From: Dehalobacter restrictus DSM 9455
Lineage (GTDB): Bacteria > Bacillota > Desulfitobacteriia > Desulfitobacteriales > Syntrophobotulaceae
NCBI RefSeq assembly: GCF_000512895.1
Contig: NZ_CP007033.1
Span: forward strand, 712,001 to 776,000
Direction of reading: 5' to 3'
Length of the DNA stretch: 64,000 nucleotides
The position numbers were made by a program, and so were the translations under genes. The notes beneath the pieces are model-generated. The model ran no database searches, was not told where the DNA came from, and worked only from the letters and a program-made list of their open reading frames with translations. Below, one piece after another: positions 30,715 through 40,030 of this stretch. How positions within the stretch are numbered: the first letter of the stretch is position 1; each line of letters begins with the position of its first letter.

Positions 30715-31908
30715 ATGTCCGAATTCAAGAATAAGATTGCCTTAGCCAGATCGCTATGGGCAAACAAACAAATCATCAGGGTCAAACCTTCAATCAATTG
30801 GTTCCTGATGAAATACATGGGGAAGTTCCGTTTACTGAATGTCGGCGGGCAGCTGGTCCTTCATTCCCATTTGCCCCCGGTAAACAGTAAAGCCTTTACC
30901 CGCTTTATCAACGAGCACCTTCTGGCAAGGACGGAGGGGCCTTCCCACGCTCAAATCAGCCTGACCGATGCCTGTCCTCAGCATTGTGCCTATTGTTACA
31001 ATAAGAATCGAAGCGGGGAACTTCTCAATACGGCAGAAATCAAACAGCTCATTCAGGATCTTAAGAAAATGGGTGTTTTCTGGCTGGGTTTTACCGGCGG
31101 GGAGCCGCTTATGAACAAAGATCTCGTAGAGATCGTCCAAAGCGCCAGAGATGATTGCGCCATTAAGCTGTTTACCACAGGCATGGGTATTACAAAAGAG
31201 CTGGCGGCGGAGTTAAAGCGGGCGGGCCTTTGCTATGTCTCGATCAGCCTGGATCATTGGCAGGAGGAAGAACATGACGGGATCAGAGGATGCCGTGGGG
31301 CTTTCCAGGCAGCGCTTCAAGCGATCGAGATATTTAAAGGCACAGGCGTTCATGTCAGTGTATCGACGGTCATCTCCAGGAGGATGCTTCGGGAAAATCA
31401 GGTTGAGAAATTTCTGGCGTTCCTGATCAGCCTTGGAATCGATGAAGCCTGGTTGAGTGAAACCAAGCCAACGGTGGAAGCTTTTTGGAATGAGGCCGCA
31501 GTCCTTACCGAAGAAGAGCGTTTAAGCCTTGTGCACTTGCAGGATAAATACAATCAAGAGAGAAAAATCACGGTGAATTATCTTGGGCATTTTGAAGGTG
31601 GAGAGCATTTTGGCTGCAATGCAGGCCATAAAATGGTCTATATTGATGCCTTTGGCGAGGTAAGCCCGTGTGTGTTTACACCGATAACCTTCGGCAATGT
31701 CCGGGATAAATCGGCGCAAGCCGTTTTTTTGGAGATGAAAGCGCATTTTCCGTCGGAAAGCTGCTGCTTTATGAACAAAAATTATGCGTTACTGAAAAAA
31801 CATTATAAAGGGCAGTCACCCCTTAGCAAAGAAGATACATTGGAGATGATGAAGGAAGTCCGGTTCAGTCCGTTGTCCGAATTTTCCCGGCTGTATTATA
31901 AGGGGTAA
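30715..31908 (+). CDS. Radical SAM enzyme, SPASM-like C-terminus
   Basis: The 397-residue protein has the cluster motif CPQHCAYCYNKN (near residue 85-93) and FTGGEPLMNKD. The C-terminal part has extra cysteines (HFGCNAGHK, GEVSPCVFTP and SESCCFMNK) as in SPASM/twitch domains that hold auxiliary [4Fe-4S] clusters, used in peptide or cofactor modification. An N-terminal extension of about 80 residues precedes the barrel. The gene opens a four-gene cluster. No short precursor peptide was found nearby, so a peptide-modifying role is only one option; it could also act on a small molecule or lipid. Confidence 0.85.
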   Translation: MSEFKNKIALARSLWANKQIIRVKPSINWFLMKYMGKFRLLNVGGQLVLHSHLPPVNSKAFTRFINEHLLARTEGPSHAQISLTDACPQHCAYCYNKNRSGELLNTAEIKQLIQDLKKMGVFWLGFTGGEPLMNKDLVEIVQSARDDCAIKLFTTGMGITKELAAELKRAGLCYVSISLDHWQEEEHDGIRGCRGAFQAALQAIEIFKGTGVHVSVSTVISRRMLRENQVEKFLAFLISLGIDEAWLSETKPTVEAFWNEAAVLTEEERLSLVHLQDKYNQERKITVNYLGHFEGGEHFGCNAGHKMVYIDAFGEVSPCVFTPITFGNVRDKSAQAVFLEMKAHFPSESCCFMNKNYALLKKHYKGQSPLSKEDTLEMMKEVRFSPLSEFSRLYYKG

Positions 31909-32025
31909 GGCTATCGGAATAAAGCCGTGGAAGTGAAATGATTGGAGTGAAGCAATAGGGATGAAATCATTGGGATGAACAGGTAGGAAAGAAGTAATGG
32001 GGATAGGATTATGGGGGTATAGGTT

Positions 32026-32442
32026 ATGAGCTTGTATAAACTGTTCAGCTTGTTTGCAGCAGGGATATTTGCCGTTGTAGGCCTGATTTTTCTGTTCTTT
32101 CCTGATGCGGCCCTGGTATTCTTTAACCGTATTTCCGGTTATTTTGGATTACCCGAAGCTTCGTTTGAAGGCGCCGGGTTTTATCTGACACTGGCAGTTG
32201 CTTATATGTATCTTGTTACTTTGCTTGCCATCCTGATGTATCGAAATCCGGCGCAGCACATCTATCCGTTTTTATTGACCCATGCCAAACTGGCATCTTC
32301 CATCCTTTCTCTGCTTTTATTTTTCATTTACCAGCCCTACCTGATTTTTTTTGCCAACTTCGTTGTTGATGGGTTGATTGGTTTAGCGGCACTGTATTTT
32401 TACCTGAAAATAAGGAAAACCGGACTTAGCGGTAATGCTTAG
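32026..32442 (+). CDS. Small polytopic membrane protein
   Basis: The 138-residue protein is highly hydrophobic with four predicted helices (LFAAGIFAVVGLIFLFF, LTLAVAYMYLVTLLAILMY, LASSILSLLLFFIY, FANFVVDGLIGLAALYFYL). No motif is recognised. It lies between the radical SAM gene and the cysteine-conserved gene; the preceding 115 bases are repetitive (AGTGAAATGATTGG-like units) and contain no gene. It may anchor or supply the cluster's enzymes at the membrane. Confidence 0.65.
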   Translation: MSLYKLFSLFAAGIFAVVGLIFLFFPDAALVFFNRISGYFGLPEASFEGAGFYLTLAVAYMYLVTLLAILMYRNPAQHIYPFLLTHAKLASSILSLLLFFIYQPYLIFFANFVVDGLIGLAALYFYLKIRKTGLSGNA

Positions 32443-32476
32443 CGCTTTTGGCGAAGACTGAAAAAACAGGGAGTCA

Positions 32477-33040
32477 ATGATGCTTCTGAAAATCATCCAG
32501 CGCTGCCTGCCTGAATGGATCAAGAGGAAAAAACTGAAGGAATTATTCCGCTTGACGGCGGATGCTTTCCAAAGTGAGCTGCCGGAGCTAAAGGGGCTTT
32601 CTTCGGCTGCGCTTCTCCCGCAATACACCTTATTTACCAAGGAACAAGCGGAAAATCATTTGCAGAGCGGACGCCCCCTTGAACAAGTCAAACAGCGGCT
32701 GTACCAAAATGCTTATCGATTCGGACGGAACTTGAGAAAAACCCTGCATATCGGAACCTGGGAAGAGGCTGTTACGGCCCTGAAGGTGATCTATCAGTTG
32801 ATCGGCATTGATTTTCAATGTGACCGGCAGGGGGAAATCATCATCCGGCAGTGCTATTTCAGCAGTTATTATTCCGGGGAAGTCTGCAAACTGATTTCCG
32901 CGCTGGATGAAGGGCTGGCTGCGGGGCTTTCAGGTGGCGGCAGGCTGTGTTTCCAGCACAGGATTACGGAAGGCAATGAATGCTGTAAAGGATATTTTCA
33001 AAGGGAACTTCAGGTAAAAAGTAAGGACGGTTCAACATGA
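32477..33040 (+). CDS. Cysteine-conserved protein of unknown family
   Basis: The 187-residue protein is helical in its N-terminal half, then shows a conserved-looking core with IGIDFQCDRQGEIIIRQCYF, YYSGEVCKLISALDEGL and GLSGGGRLCFQHRITEG before a Cys pair. The pattern resembles L-2-amino-thiazoline-4-carboxylic acid hydrolase-like or V4R-type small-molecule domains, where spaced cysteines bind a metal or substrate; I would not go further. It overlaps the GMC oxidoreductase gene by four bases (ATGA), which suggests that the two products work together. Confidence 0.55.
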   Translation: MMLLKIIQRCLPEWIKRKKLKELFRLTADAFQSELPELKGLSSAALLPQYTLFTKEQAENHLQSGRPLEQVKQRLYQNAYRFGRNLRKTLHIGTWEEAVTALKVIYQLIGIDFQCDRQGEIIIRQCYFSSYYSGEVCKLISALDEGLAAGLSGGGRLCFQHRITEGNECCKGYFQRELQVKSKDGST

Positions 33041-34329
33041 AAAGGGTAATCGTCGTCGGCAGCGGTGCGGGAGGGGCTGCCTCGGCCAAGAAACTGCAGG
33101 GGAAGTTTCAGGTGACAGTCCTGGAGGCAGGCCGGGAATTCAAGCCGTTTTCTATCAATTTATCTATTCTGGAAAAGTTAAGAAAAACCGGACTGTTCTT
33201 CGATGAGAGGGAAATACAACTGCTGTTTCCGTCGATGAGCGTCAGGAAAACCTCGGATAGTATGGTAATGGTCAGCGGCAGGGGCTTAGGCGGGACGACC
33301 ACGCTTTCGGCAGGAAATGCGCTGCGTATGGACAAGGGGCTTAAGGATCTTGGCATTGATCTGGATGATGAATTTGAGGAGCTTTACAGGGAAATCCCTG
33401 TCACCGATGACCATCGGCCTAAATGGCAGAATTCCACCAAAAGGCTGTTTGAAATATGCACGGAAATGGACCTGAATCCTGTGCCTTTGCCTAAGCTGGG
33501 TAATTATCAGCGCTGTACCGGCTGTGGGAGGTGTGTCCTGGGCTGCCGGTATCATGTCAAATGGGACAGCCGTCAATTTCTGAACGCTGCACAGGATTTG
33601 GGTGCGGAGCTCATCACAGGCTGTCAGGTAGTGAAGCTTGTAACGGAAAAGGGTCTCGTAAAAGGGGTCCAGGCCCAAAAAGGCTTCAACTCCGTATTTT
33701 ACCCGGCGGATATTGTAATCCTGGCGGCAGGCGGATTTTCAACCCCCGTCATTCTTCAAAACTCGGGGATCGAATGCGAAAGCAGATTATTCGTTGATCC
33801 GGTTCTCTGCGTGGCTGCCCGGCAAAAAGGAAGTCTTCAGAACAAAGAGCTTTCGATGCCCTTTGCCGTACAGAGGGAGCATGCTATTTTATCCCCTTAC
33901 TTTGATTATCTGAGCTTTTTCTTTCATCCTAGCTGGCGGTATCCTGCCCAGGATATTGTATCCCTGATGATCAAGCTGGCGGATTCAAGCGCCGGAACGG
34001 TTGATAACAAAAACATCAGGAAAACGCTGAGCGATATAGATCAGGAAAGATTGCGGGAGGAAGTCGAACTCTGCATGGAGATCCTTTCCACGTATGGGAT
34101 AAAAAAAGATACTATTTTCCTGGGAACGATCAATGCCGGACACCCCGGTGGCATGCTGCCGCTTACCGCAGACGAAGCCGTGACCTTTCATAACCCCAGG
34201 CTGCCCGAGAACCTGTATGTAGCTGATGCAACGCTTTTCCCTGAGTCTTTGGGGAATCCGCCGATTTTAACGATCATGGCGATGGCGAAGAGGGTCAGTA
34301 AAATCATCATTGACAAAAATAGCCTGTAA
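33037..34329 (+). CDS. GMC-type flavin oxidoreductase with ferredoxin-like cysteine motif
   Basis: The 430-residue protein begins with the FAD-binding fold VIVVGSGAGGAASAKKL and has the GMC signatures SGRGLGGTTTLSAGN and, near the end, DATLFPESLGNPP with TIMAMAKRVS. A ferredoxin-like motif, CTGCGRCVLGC, lies near residue 165-175, suggesting an iron-sulfur cluster that passes electrons to or from the flavin. Short GMC proteins with this insert occur in anaerobes and archaea. It overlaps the preceding cysteine-conserved gene and ends the cluster. Confidence 0.82.
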   Translation: MKRVIVVGSGAGGAASAKKLQGKFQVTVLEAGREFKPFSINLSILEKLRKTGLFFDEREIQLLFPSMSVRKTSDSMVMVSGRGLGGTTTLSAGNALRMDKGLKDLGIDLDDEFEELYREIPVTDDHRPKWQNSTKRLFEICTEMDLNPVPLPKLGNYQRCTGCGRCVLGCRYHVKWDSRQFLNAAQDLGAELITGCQVVKLVTEKGLVKGVQAQKGFNSVFYPADIVILAAGGFSTPVILQNSGIECESRLFVDPVLCVAARQKGSLQNKELSMPFAVQREHAILSPYFDYLSFFFHPSWRYPAQDIVSLMIKLADSSAGTVDNKNIRKTLSDIDQERLREEVELCMEILSTYGIKKDTIFLGTINAGHPGGMLPLTADEAVTFHNPRLPENLYVADATLFPESLGNPPILTIMAMAKRVSKIIIDKNSL

Positions 34330-34418
34330 AACAGGCTATTTTTGATATCCATTCCATTCAATTTCCATCTCCTTCGCGGAGCCGATTTTATCCCCAGGAA
34401 GATTGAGGACGTACTTAC

Positions 34419-38094: not shown

Positions 38095-38694
38095 ATCAAA
38101 ATAATTATTCTAGGCGGGTTTTTGGGTTCAGGGAAAACCAGTGTCCTCTTGCAGTTGGCGCATTCTATTGTTAACAGTTCTGAAAGAATAAAAGAAACAA
38201 CTGTTGCAATTATAGAAAATGAAATTGGTCAGGTTGGGATTGACGATAAAGTATTACGAAGAAATGGTTATGAAGTAAGAGATATTTTCTCAGGTTGCAT
38301 CTGTTGTAGTTTAAACAACGATCTCATCACAGGCATTCAAGACATCGCGCGTAAAAATGACCCCGAATGGCTGATCATTGAGGCAACAGGCGTTGCATAT
38401 CCAAGCAGCATCTCAGATTCAATTTACAATAATCTTAGGATGACAGCCCGAATCGTGACAATAGTTGATGCTAGCCGCTGGCAACGGATCCGCATTCCTT
38501 TAGAGAGACTGATTGAAGGACAACTGAGTAATGCACAGATCATTCTTATCAATAAAACAGATCTTGTAGATGAAGAAACACTGAATAAAATCGAAAATGA
38601 CGTTCGAAACCTAAATGACAAAGCCGCATTATACCGCATCAGTGGGATGAGTGAAATTGATGAGACGATATTGCAGGTGATAAGAAGTGGTTGA
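38095..38694 (+). CDS. G3E-family (CobW/HypB/UreG-like) P-loop GTPase
   Basis: G3E GTPases deliver or insert metals into enzymes. The 200-residue frame has Walker A GGFLGSGKTS, the Cys metal motif SGCICCSLNND and the NKTD base motif. Every in-frame ATG, GTG or TTG falls inside or after the P-loop, so translation must begin upstream; ATC at 38095, eight bases after a run of seven G residues, would give MKIIILGGFLGSGKT, the usual start of the family. Hence a non-canonical ATC start is proposed. It overlaps the next gene by eight bases. It may load zinc or corrinoid-related metal in the cluster that follows. Confidence 0.75.
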   Translation: MKIIILGGFLGSGKTSVLLQLAHSIVNSSERIKETTVAIIENEIGQVGIDDKVLRRNGYEVRDIFSGCICCSLNNDLITGIQDIARKNDPEWLIIEATGVAYPSSISDSIYNNLRMTARIVTIVDASRWQRIRIPLERLIEGQLSNAQIILINKTDLVDEETLNKIENDVRNLNDKAALYRISGMSEIDETILQVIRSG

Positions 38695-39157
38695 ATTCAG
38701 CAGCGATACAGAATTGTCAAAACGGGGAAAATATCGAATTAAAACGACAATACAGGAAGGCGCATTTGCAGTCTCAGGTGAAAATACGATTCAGCATGAG
38801 GATTGTAATAAGATAAAAAACATCATAGAAAATGAAATCAAGGCGCTGAATTCCTGGGTCTTGGACCGAGGCGGTATTATCGGACATGTCAAAGGATTTC
38901 TTTCTGCCAACAATCATTCGGTTATGATTTCTTCAACAGGGGATGAAGTATACTGCCACACCCATGAATCAGCAGGTTCGATAAATGAAGATGTACAAGT
39001 CAGTTTAGTATTGATCGTATTTAATGTTTCACAATTAGGACTGGAAGAACAACTGATCGCAATATTTGACAGACTTGAAGATGATCAAGAAAGCCCTAGA
39101 CGGATCGGAGGTGACACAGAAAGGAGAAGCGACTGGAAATTTGAACTACACAGGTGA
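38687..39157 (+). CDS. Hypothetical protein coupled to the G3E GTPase
   Basis: The 156-residue protein starts at GTG 38687 inside the GTPase gene. It contains a GGIIGHVKGFLSANNHSVMIS segment and a putative metal-binding YCHTHES. The arrangement looks like the C-terminal partner domain of a COG0523-type metallochaperone encoded as a separate protein, but this is inference. No signal peptide is present. It precedes the methyltransferase genes by 70 bases. Confidence 0.55.
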   Translation: MVEFSSDTELSKRGKYRIKTTIQEGAFAVSGENTIQHEDCNKIKNIIENEIKALNSWVLDRGGIIGHVKGFLSANNHSVMISSTGDEVYCHTHESAGSINEDVQVSLVLIVFNVSQLGLEEQLIAIFDRLEDDQESPRRIGGDTERRSDWKFELHR

Positions 39158-39226
39158 AGAAGGCGTTCAATAGTATAAGAAGTATTATAAGAAGTATTAT
39201 AACAAGTAGATAGGAGATTCTTAAGC

Positions 39227-40030
39227 ATGATTATTATTGGTGAAAAAATTAATGGTGCAATTCCTTCTGTAGCAAGAGCAATCGCTGAAAAGGATGCAGG
39301 CTTTATTGACAATCTAGCTAAAACTCAGGCTGATGCAGGAGCAAACTTCATTGATGTATGTGCATCAGTGGAAGATAGCCTTGAACTCGAAACAATGAAA
39401 TGGCTTATCGACTTGGTTCAGGAAGTTACCGATACGCCGATAGCGATAGACAGTCCCCATGCCCATATCTGCGTTGAAGCCATGAAGTTCTGCAAAAAGC
39501 CAGGGATTATCAATTCAGTCTCCGGCGAAGGGAACAAGATCGAACTCGTGTTTCCTGTCATCGCGGATACGAAATGGGAATGCGTGGCCCTCTTGTGCGA
39601 TGACACCGGAATTCCTAAGACAGCCGAAAAAAGGATGGAAGTGTTTAGGAAGATCATGGAAAAAGCCAAAGCACACAATATTGCTCCATCACGCTTGCAC
39701 ATCGATCCGTTGGTAGAAATGCTCTGTACGTCTGAAGATGGTATTAATATGGTGGTTGACGTTATTAAAGACATTAAAGCTCAGTATCCAGCTATCCATG
39801 TAACCGGGGGTTTAAGCAATATTTCCTTTAATCTTCCGGCTAGAAGACTGGTGAATCAGGCATTTATCGTACTGGCGATGAACGCGGGAATGGATAGTGG
39901 GATTATCGCTCCAACTAACCAAGATTTAATGGGGATGATCTATGCAACAGAAGCACTCTTAGGGAAAGACGACTACTGCATGGAATACATTGGTGCATAT
40001 CGAGAAGAATTATTTGGTCAAAAAAAATAA
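39227..40030 (+). CDS. Methyltetrahydrofolate:corrinoid methyltransferase (MtvA/AcsE-like)
   Basis: The 267-residue pterin-binding TIM-barrel protein begins MIIIGEKINGAIPSVARAI and has the DAGANFIDVCASV, PIAIDSPHAHICVEA, HIDPLVEMLC and VTGGLSNISF segments of the DHPS-like methyltransferase family. In O-demethylase systems the corresponding protein (methyltransferase II) moves the methyl group from the corrinoid protein to tetrahydrofolate. The cluster order GTPase, MT-II, corrinoid protein, MT-I supports that. It is 50 bases upstream of the corrinoid protein gene. Confidence 0.88.
   Translation: MIIIGEKINGAIPSVARAIAEKDAGFIDNLAKTQADAGANFIDVCASVEDSLELETMKWLIDLVQEVTDTPIAIDSPHAHICVEAMKFCKKPGIINSVSGEGNKIELVFPVIADTKWECVALLCDDTGIPKTAEKRMEVFRKIMEKAKAHNIAPSRLHIDPLVEMLCTSEDGINMVVDVIKDIKAQYPAIHVTGGLSNISFNLPARRLVNQAFIVLAMNAGMDSGIIAPTNQDLMGMIYATEALLGKDDYCMEYIGAYREELFGQKK

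Follow-up and report, generated by a model that had tools for sequence, protein, structure and literature searches.

What do four closely spaced genes of Dehalobacter restrictus DSM 9455 do together, given that they encode a radical SAM protein (rSAM), a small membrane protein (MEM), a 187-residue protein with conserved cysteines (CYS) and a GMC oxidoreductase (GMC)? The genes occupy positions 30715-34329 of the window, by which we mean the whole stretch of 64,000 nucleotides analyzed here (positions 712,001 to 776,000 of contig NZ_CP007033.1); the host genome (Bacillota) comprises 2,943,336 bases in one contig. The open reading frames confirm an earlier annotation of the same letters (the first-pass annotation), which had described four same-strand genes with tight spacing or overlap: all four lie on the + strand, CYS runs 4 bases into GMC, and gaps of 117 and 34 bases separate rSAM from MEM and MEM from CYS, respectively. 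We find that CYS and GMC form the core of a rare operon with two alternative front ends. The reading we favor, with somewhat less than even confidence, is that a hydrophobic substrate associated with the membrane, most likely a lipid or acyl chain, is modified anaerobically by the operon in a way not described before.

Conservation and Distribution of the Four-Gene Operon

The order rSAM-MEM-CYS-GMC, on one strand, is kept in 21 genomes from Bacillota, KSB1 and one member of the Bacteroidota (the window, three further genomes from the host genus, L012-L017, L020, L031, L032, L046, and L072-L078; L032 is counted although its contig end cuts GMC). The block was located via the GMC protein in Bacillota, and via a CYS profile in the Bacteroidota genome and the KSB1 genomes. 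In most of these relatives only ~12-30 bases separate rSAM from MEM, and no gap is left between MEM and CYS, which abut or overlap. The ratio of nonsynonymous to synonymous substitution rates (dN/dS) ranges from 0.09 to 0.22 across the four genes in every comparison, which, together with the gene order kept in 21 genomes, indicates conservation beyond chance. Clustering of neighboring genes across loci showed that the core genes alone recur widely. Neighborhoods in relatives are thus not random, and the suggestion that the four genes form one functional unit is supported. The accompanying remark that these enzymes are not usually found together holds for the families at large; at the level of orthologues it does not, as these are almost always together.

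The operon is rare: the CYS profile matched in one of 215 genera of sampled Bacillota, two of 247 Bacteroidota genomes, and, within the KSB1 phylum, 10 of 82 genomes. It is also accessory, since the block is missing from one of five genomes of the host genus. A transfer to Calditrichota, considered for L014, was dropped because GTDB appears to place this genome in Bacillota; the record ("Calditrichales bacterium MX18-03") is probably a mislabeled Bacillota genome.

An Alternative Front End in Bacteroidales and KSB1

In 12 other genomes, CYS and GMC are preceded by a different pair of genes in place of rSAM and MEM. The carriers of this second operon type (type II, with the four-gene form as type I) are eleven Bacteroidales loci, mostly from the rumen, and one KSB1 locus (L079). 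The front pair consists of a pyruvyl-transferase-like gene (PF04230) and a gene, hereafter FAR-ACS, in which a fatty-acyl reductase (PF07993) is fused to an acyl-CoA ligase (PF00501 and PF23562). Type II genes touch or overlap in most of the 12 genomes; within this set, the contig of L026 starts inside the fusion, and CYS of L025 was seen by profile search. When 395 Bacteroidota genomes were searched with a profile of the FAR-ACS fusion, no orthologue turned up except within the operon, and the fusion was not detected in the type I genomes searched. Because FAR-ACS was found neither without the operon nor in these type I genomes, the two front ends are alternatives, and the existence of two operon types identifies CYS-GMC as the core. 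The FAR-ACS front end would tie this core to acyl-chain chemistry; it is the main, though indirect, evidence for that link. In KSB1, the Bacteroidales-type operon of L079 (158-6391; pyruvyl-transferase-like, FAR-ACS, CYS, GMC) lies on a long branch in the tree of CYS and GMC, and elsewhere in KSB1 the operon is of the radical SAM type.

The CYS Protein

The AlphaFold2 model of CYS (predicted local distance difference test, pLDDT, 89.6) has a Bet3/V4R fold; its best Foldseek and VIA matches are Bet3/TRAPPC3, the phenol sensors MopR, DmpR, and PoxR, and the V4R protein MJ1460. In VIA, CYS aligned with palmitoyl-bound TRAPPC3 (6aq3) at Z 11.4 (144 aligned residues, 3.2 Å), and with phenol-binding MopR and DmpR at Z 10.3-10.5. 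Binding of hydrophobic ligands has been proposed for V4R domains (PMC2253512), and the predicted fold of CYS is typical of such binders. CYS shares this predicted fold with TRAPPC3 but has its own pattern of C126, C137, and C170, which are invariant, as are S141 and D144. None of 18 CYS members has a V4R or TRAPP sequence match in Pfam, a viral structure library gave no match to CYS, and no pathway assigned to CYS orthologues was found. PF14196 (ATC hydrolase) gave a weak profile match in nine of the 18 orthologues (best 8.6e-4); the window CYS (14.9 bits) and that of L009 (18.7 bits) stay below its gathering cut-off of 28.1 bits, and there is no sign of cysteine metabolism around CYS.

The GMC Oxidoreductase

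The internal cysteine motif reported by the first-pass annotation (RCTGCGRCVLGC) is genuine: C160, C163, C166, and C170 are invariant in 30 sequences, as is the catalytic H369, and among PDB sequences this stretch matches proteins of the ferredoxin type. GMC enzymes with a ferredoxin-like cluster have precedents: a 3Fe-4S cluster is present in glucose and fructose dehydrogenases that use flavin adenine dinucleotide (FAD). In the Burkholderia glucose dehydrogenase BcGDH, the cluster ligands are C212-x5-C218-x3-C222 (PMC6719666). Compared by spacing, C160-x5-C166-x3-C170 of GMC is the same; C163 is extra, and this fourth cysteine should complete a [4Fe-4S] cluster. BcGDH and fructose dehydrogenase (FDH) are also the top VIA matches of the GMC model (Z 29.3 and 29.8, respectively), which is of moderate quality (pLDDT 76.6); pyridoxine and choline oxidase follow within ~1-2 Z units, and the structural ranking alone is therefore not decisive. 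GMC resembles the BcGDH alpha subunit and the FDH large subunit in fold, cysteine spacing, and a co-encoded small protein, but differs in the extra cysteine, in length (430 versus ~540 residues), and in the fold of the small protein. No gene for a multiheme cytochrome c subunit lies alongside GMC; the next gene encodes a GntR regulator, and no further gene recurs with the block. A search for GMC on plasmids found just a distantly related gene on a Photobacterium replicon, and this gene lacks CYS, MEM, and rSAM neighbors.

The Radical SAM and Membrane Proteins

The CX3CX2C motif of rSAM (C87, C91, and C94) is invariant in 17 sequences, as are C301-x12-G314-x4-C319 and C351 in the C-terminal part; a conserved N-terminal extension of ~75 residues carries an HSHLP motif. 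The extra SPASM-like cysteines proposed for this protein are therefore borne out to the extent of three invariant residues (C301, C319, and C351), but they are not the complete seven-cysteine set: rSAM has the first half of the motif plus one cysteine, and the Pfam SPASM match covers 43 of 67 positions. By analogy with MoaA-like enzymes, we infer that such a half-SPASM would hold one auxiliary cluster with an open site. The first-pass annotation proposed that rSAM and GMC may both exchange electrons through iron-sulfur clusters; an exchange between these two proteins is at most conjectural, and the 12 type II operons contain the CYS-GMC core but not this radical SAM protein. The nearest NCBIfam models (NirJ2, PqqE, TIGR04053, and AhbD) all score far below their cut-offs. 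The distant rSAM relatives in L051 and L052 adjoin methyltransferases or B12-type radical SAM-like genes, with neither GMC nor CYS, and therefore gave no substrate clue; in L052 (269-6614), the relative is accompanied by a pair of B12-type radical SAM-like genes together with one gene resembling an acetyltransferase and another that is GH3-like (names assigned by eye).

The hydrophobic MEM probably has four membrane helices, as judged from its sequence, and its invariant polar residues are K88, N111, and D115. The window protein matches no Pfam family and no sequence in the PDB; the orthologue in L017 has a sub-threshold match to the TLC domain (21.8 versus 24.6 bits). In metagenome contig L031 (5850-7544), rSAM and MEM form one 565-residue open frame, through either gene fusion or a sequencing error; this single contig hints at contact between the two proteins.

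Boundaries and Neighboring Genes

The features of the block are given in Table 1. The hairpin on the GMC stop codon has 14 pairs, and the four-gene unit therefore probably ends there. A consensus promoter scan did no better than shuffled sequences. ABC-transporter and GntR genes flank the block, GntR directly downstream of GMC; elsewhere they do not recur with the block, except for generic ABC ATPases near two other loci. Further downstream (window 38122-40030) are genes that, by sequence only, are CobW-type GTPase-like and pterin-binding methyltransferase-like.

Table 1. Features of the block in Dehalobacter restrictus (window positions).
Feature	Position	Strand	Length and evidence
rSAM	30715-31908	+	397 aa; Pfam Radical_SAM 1.3e-23, SPASM 1.4e-5
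MEM	32026-32442	+	138 aa, hydrophobic; sequence and alignment
CYS	32477-33040	+	187 aa; AlphaFold2 model, Foldseek and VIA matches
GMC	33037-34329	+	430 aa; Pfam GMC_oxred_N (PF00732) 1.1e-18
Codons of GMC C160-x2-C163-x2-C166-x3-C170, predicted [4Fe-4S] ligands	33514-33546	+	sequence
Hairpin at GMC stop codon, probable operon terminator	34314-34344	+	fold -18.5 kcal/mol, z = -7.55

Other loci have neighbors of their own. Phytoene-desaturase/retinol-saturase-like flavoproteins are encoded directly upstream of the block in L015 (4226-5770), L072 (4305-5798), and L073 (5375-6457); they are of two types, 24% identical to each other. A PEMT/ICMT-type methyltransferase gene also lies near the block in L073. 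In two KSB1 genomes (L077:1268-6541 and L078:3268-5040), the block has sulfatase genes as its immediate neighbors.

Comparison With Known Systems

The literature on radical SAM proteins with GMC enzymes yielded the mycofactocin paper and incidental mentions only, and none joins these genes. Mycofactocin shares with the operon a radical SAM protein and a GMC enzyme of similar length in one cluster (MftC and MftG); CYS, a membrane protein, and the 4Fe-4S motif within GMC set the operon apart from mycofactocin. The first-pass annotation had set the cluster apart from mycofactocin for want of a precursor peptide and an MftB-like chaperone, and our searches agree. In 10 divergent loci, no conserved small open reading frame that could encode a precursor peptide (MftA) lies within 500 bp of the block, and the matches in the genome to PF05402 (MftB/PqqD) are just at 1.95-2.15 Mb, >1.2 Mb from the block at 0.743 Mb. 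The scores against the mycofactocin models are far below their cut-offs (rSAM versus MftC, 90.8/265 bits; GMC versus two MftG models, 45.7/400 and 35.7/387 bits). A mycofactocin-like ribosomally synthesized and post-translationally modified peptide was rejected on these grounds. A peptide-derived redox cofactor of the mycofactocin or pyrroloquinoline quinone (PQQ) kind is, for the same reasons, highly improbable, even though the pairing of a radical SAM/SPASM protein with GMC recalls MftC and MftG and both models are weakly matched.

ElbD of the Myxococcus ether-lipid operon has FAR and ACS domains in one protein, a likeness confined to the type II fusion, which lacks the acyl carrier protein and acyltransferase domains of ElbD. 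Genes for GMC, radical SAM, and CYS proteins are absent from the published elb operon (PMC9131029), and we rejected it as a match beyond the FAR-ACS domains. The enzyme superfamilies are known; the gene combination and the front-end swap are undescribed, as far as could be found.

Proposed Function and Rival Explanations

In the favored reading, rSAM would work at the membrane with MEM to make or activate a functional group on the substrate. CYS, given its predicted fold, would hold the hydrophobic chain and pass it along; a cysteine thioester, or a metal site formed by the conserved cysteines, could serve for this. GMC would oxidize an alcohol to a carbonyl, or act in reverse, using H369 and FAD, and the putative [4Fe-4S] cluster would pass electrons between FAD and an outside carrier in place of O2. 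In type II operons, the pyruvyl-transferase-like protein and FAR-ACS would replace rSAM and MEM and supply an activated, reduced acyl chain to CYS-GMC. We count as support the four-gene order, the front-end swap, the fold of CYS, the cysteine spacing of GMC, the hydrophobic MEM with its invariant polar residues, the desaturase-like genes upstream in L015, L072, and L073, and the methyltransferase in L073. The more specific proposal of a lipid pathway with a fixed core of V4R-fold carrier and Fe-S GMC enzyme, into which two chemically different front ends plug (rSAM with MEM, or an acyl-activating reductase with a pyruvyl-transferase-like protein), is possible but on balance doubtful. The broader suggestion of the first-pass annotation, that the cluster makes or modifies an unknown cofactor, lipid, or small molecule, is probably right.

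Several observations weigh against the favored reading. The structural scores of CYS (Z 10-11) are moderate for a mostly helical protein, and the Bet3/V4R fold is also used by sensors and tetrapyrrole-related proteins. The rSAM core is weakly closest to tetrapyrrole (NirJ and AhbD) and PQQ enzymes. FAR and ACS domains can act on carboxylic acids beyond fatty acids, and type II GMC has L where type I has N407, so that catalysis may differ between the types. Finally, no lipid data were found for any of the carrier strains.

Three rival explanations share most of the remaining probability. Dehalobacter depends on corrinoids, and the operon could modify a tetrapyrrole or other ring cofactor, with a NirJ/AhbD-like rSAM acting on a side chain, CYS as a BchJ/V4R-like carrier, and GMC performing a final oxidation. 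The nearest rSAM models include NirJ2, AhbD, NirJ1, and AhbC, and bilin-associated gene clusters contain V4R proteins (PMC10151467). We nevertheless consider this unlikely: the rSAM scores are far below the family cut-offs, no tetrapyrrole gene is recurrent near the block, and the type II core is fed by an acyl-CoA-ligase/thioester-reductase fusion and not by a tetrapyrrole enzyme. The same type II chemistry, of the fatty-acyl kind, counts against a second rival, in which a respiratory quinone or another isoprenoid lipid is modified at the membrane; we regard this as quite unlikely. Many hosts use menaquinone, and MEM, the V4R fold, and the desaturase-like genes beside three blocks would fit such a substrate, but these genes are of two dissimilar types and are absent from other loci.

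The third explanation would make CYS a small partner subunit of GMC, like BcGDH gamma, with rSAM and MEM maturing or anchoring the enzyme, and the whole an ordinary small-alcohol dehydrogenase. In every operon GMC is immediately preceded by CYS, FDH and glucose dehydrogenase head the structural matches of GMC, and the BcGDH small subunit has one cysteine next to the Fe-S cluster (PMC6719666). The structural matches listed for CYS did not include the gamma-subunit fold, a result of little weight either way. However, BcGDH gamma is a secreted hitchhiker protein, whereas CYS has no secretion signal (by eye) and a Bet3/V4R fold. As no cytochrome gene follows GMC and a maturation role leaves the type II FAR-ACS unexplained, we judge this explanation improbable, on a par with the quinone one.

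If modification of an acyl chain or lipid is the correct reading, organohalide-respiring Dehalobacter, KSB1, and rumen Prevotella would all gain a membrane-chemistry pathway; it would include a GMC enzyme that avoids O2 by means of an Fe-S exit, and would assign a metabolic role to a protein with the Bet3/V4R fold. Because of the module swap, the question of the substrate can be put to the test, as the variant whose acyl enzymes are familiar occurs in a culturable species, Prevotella ruminicola.

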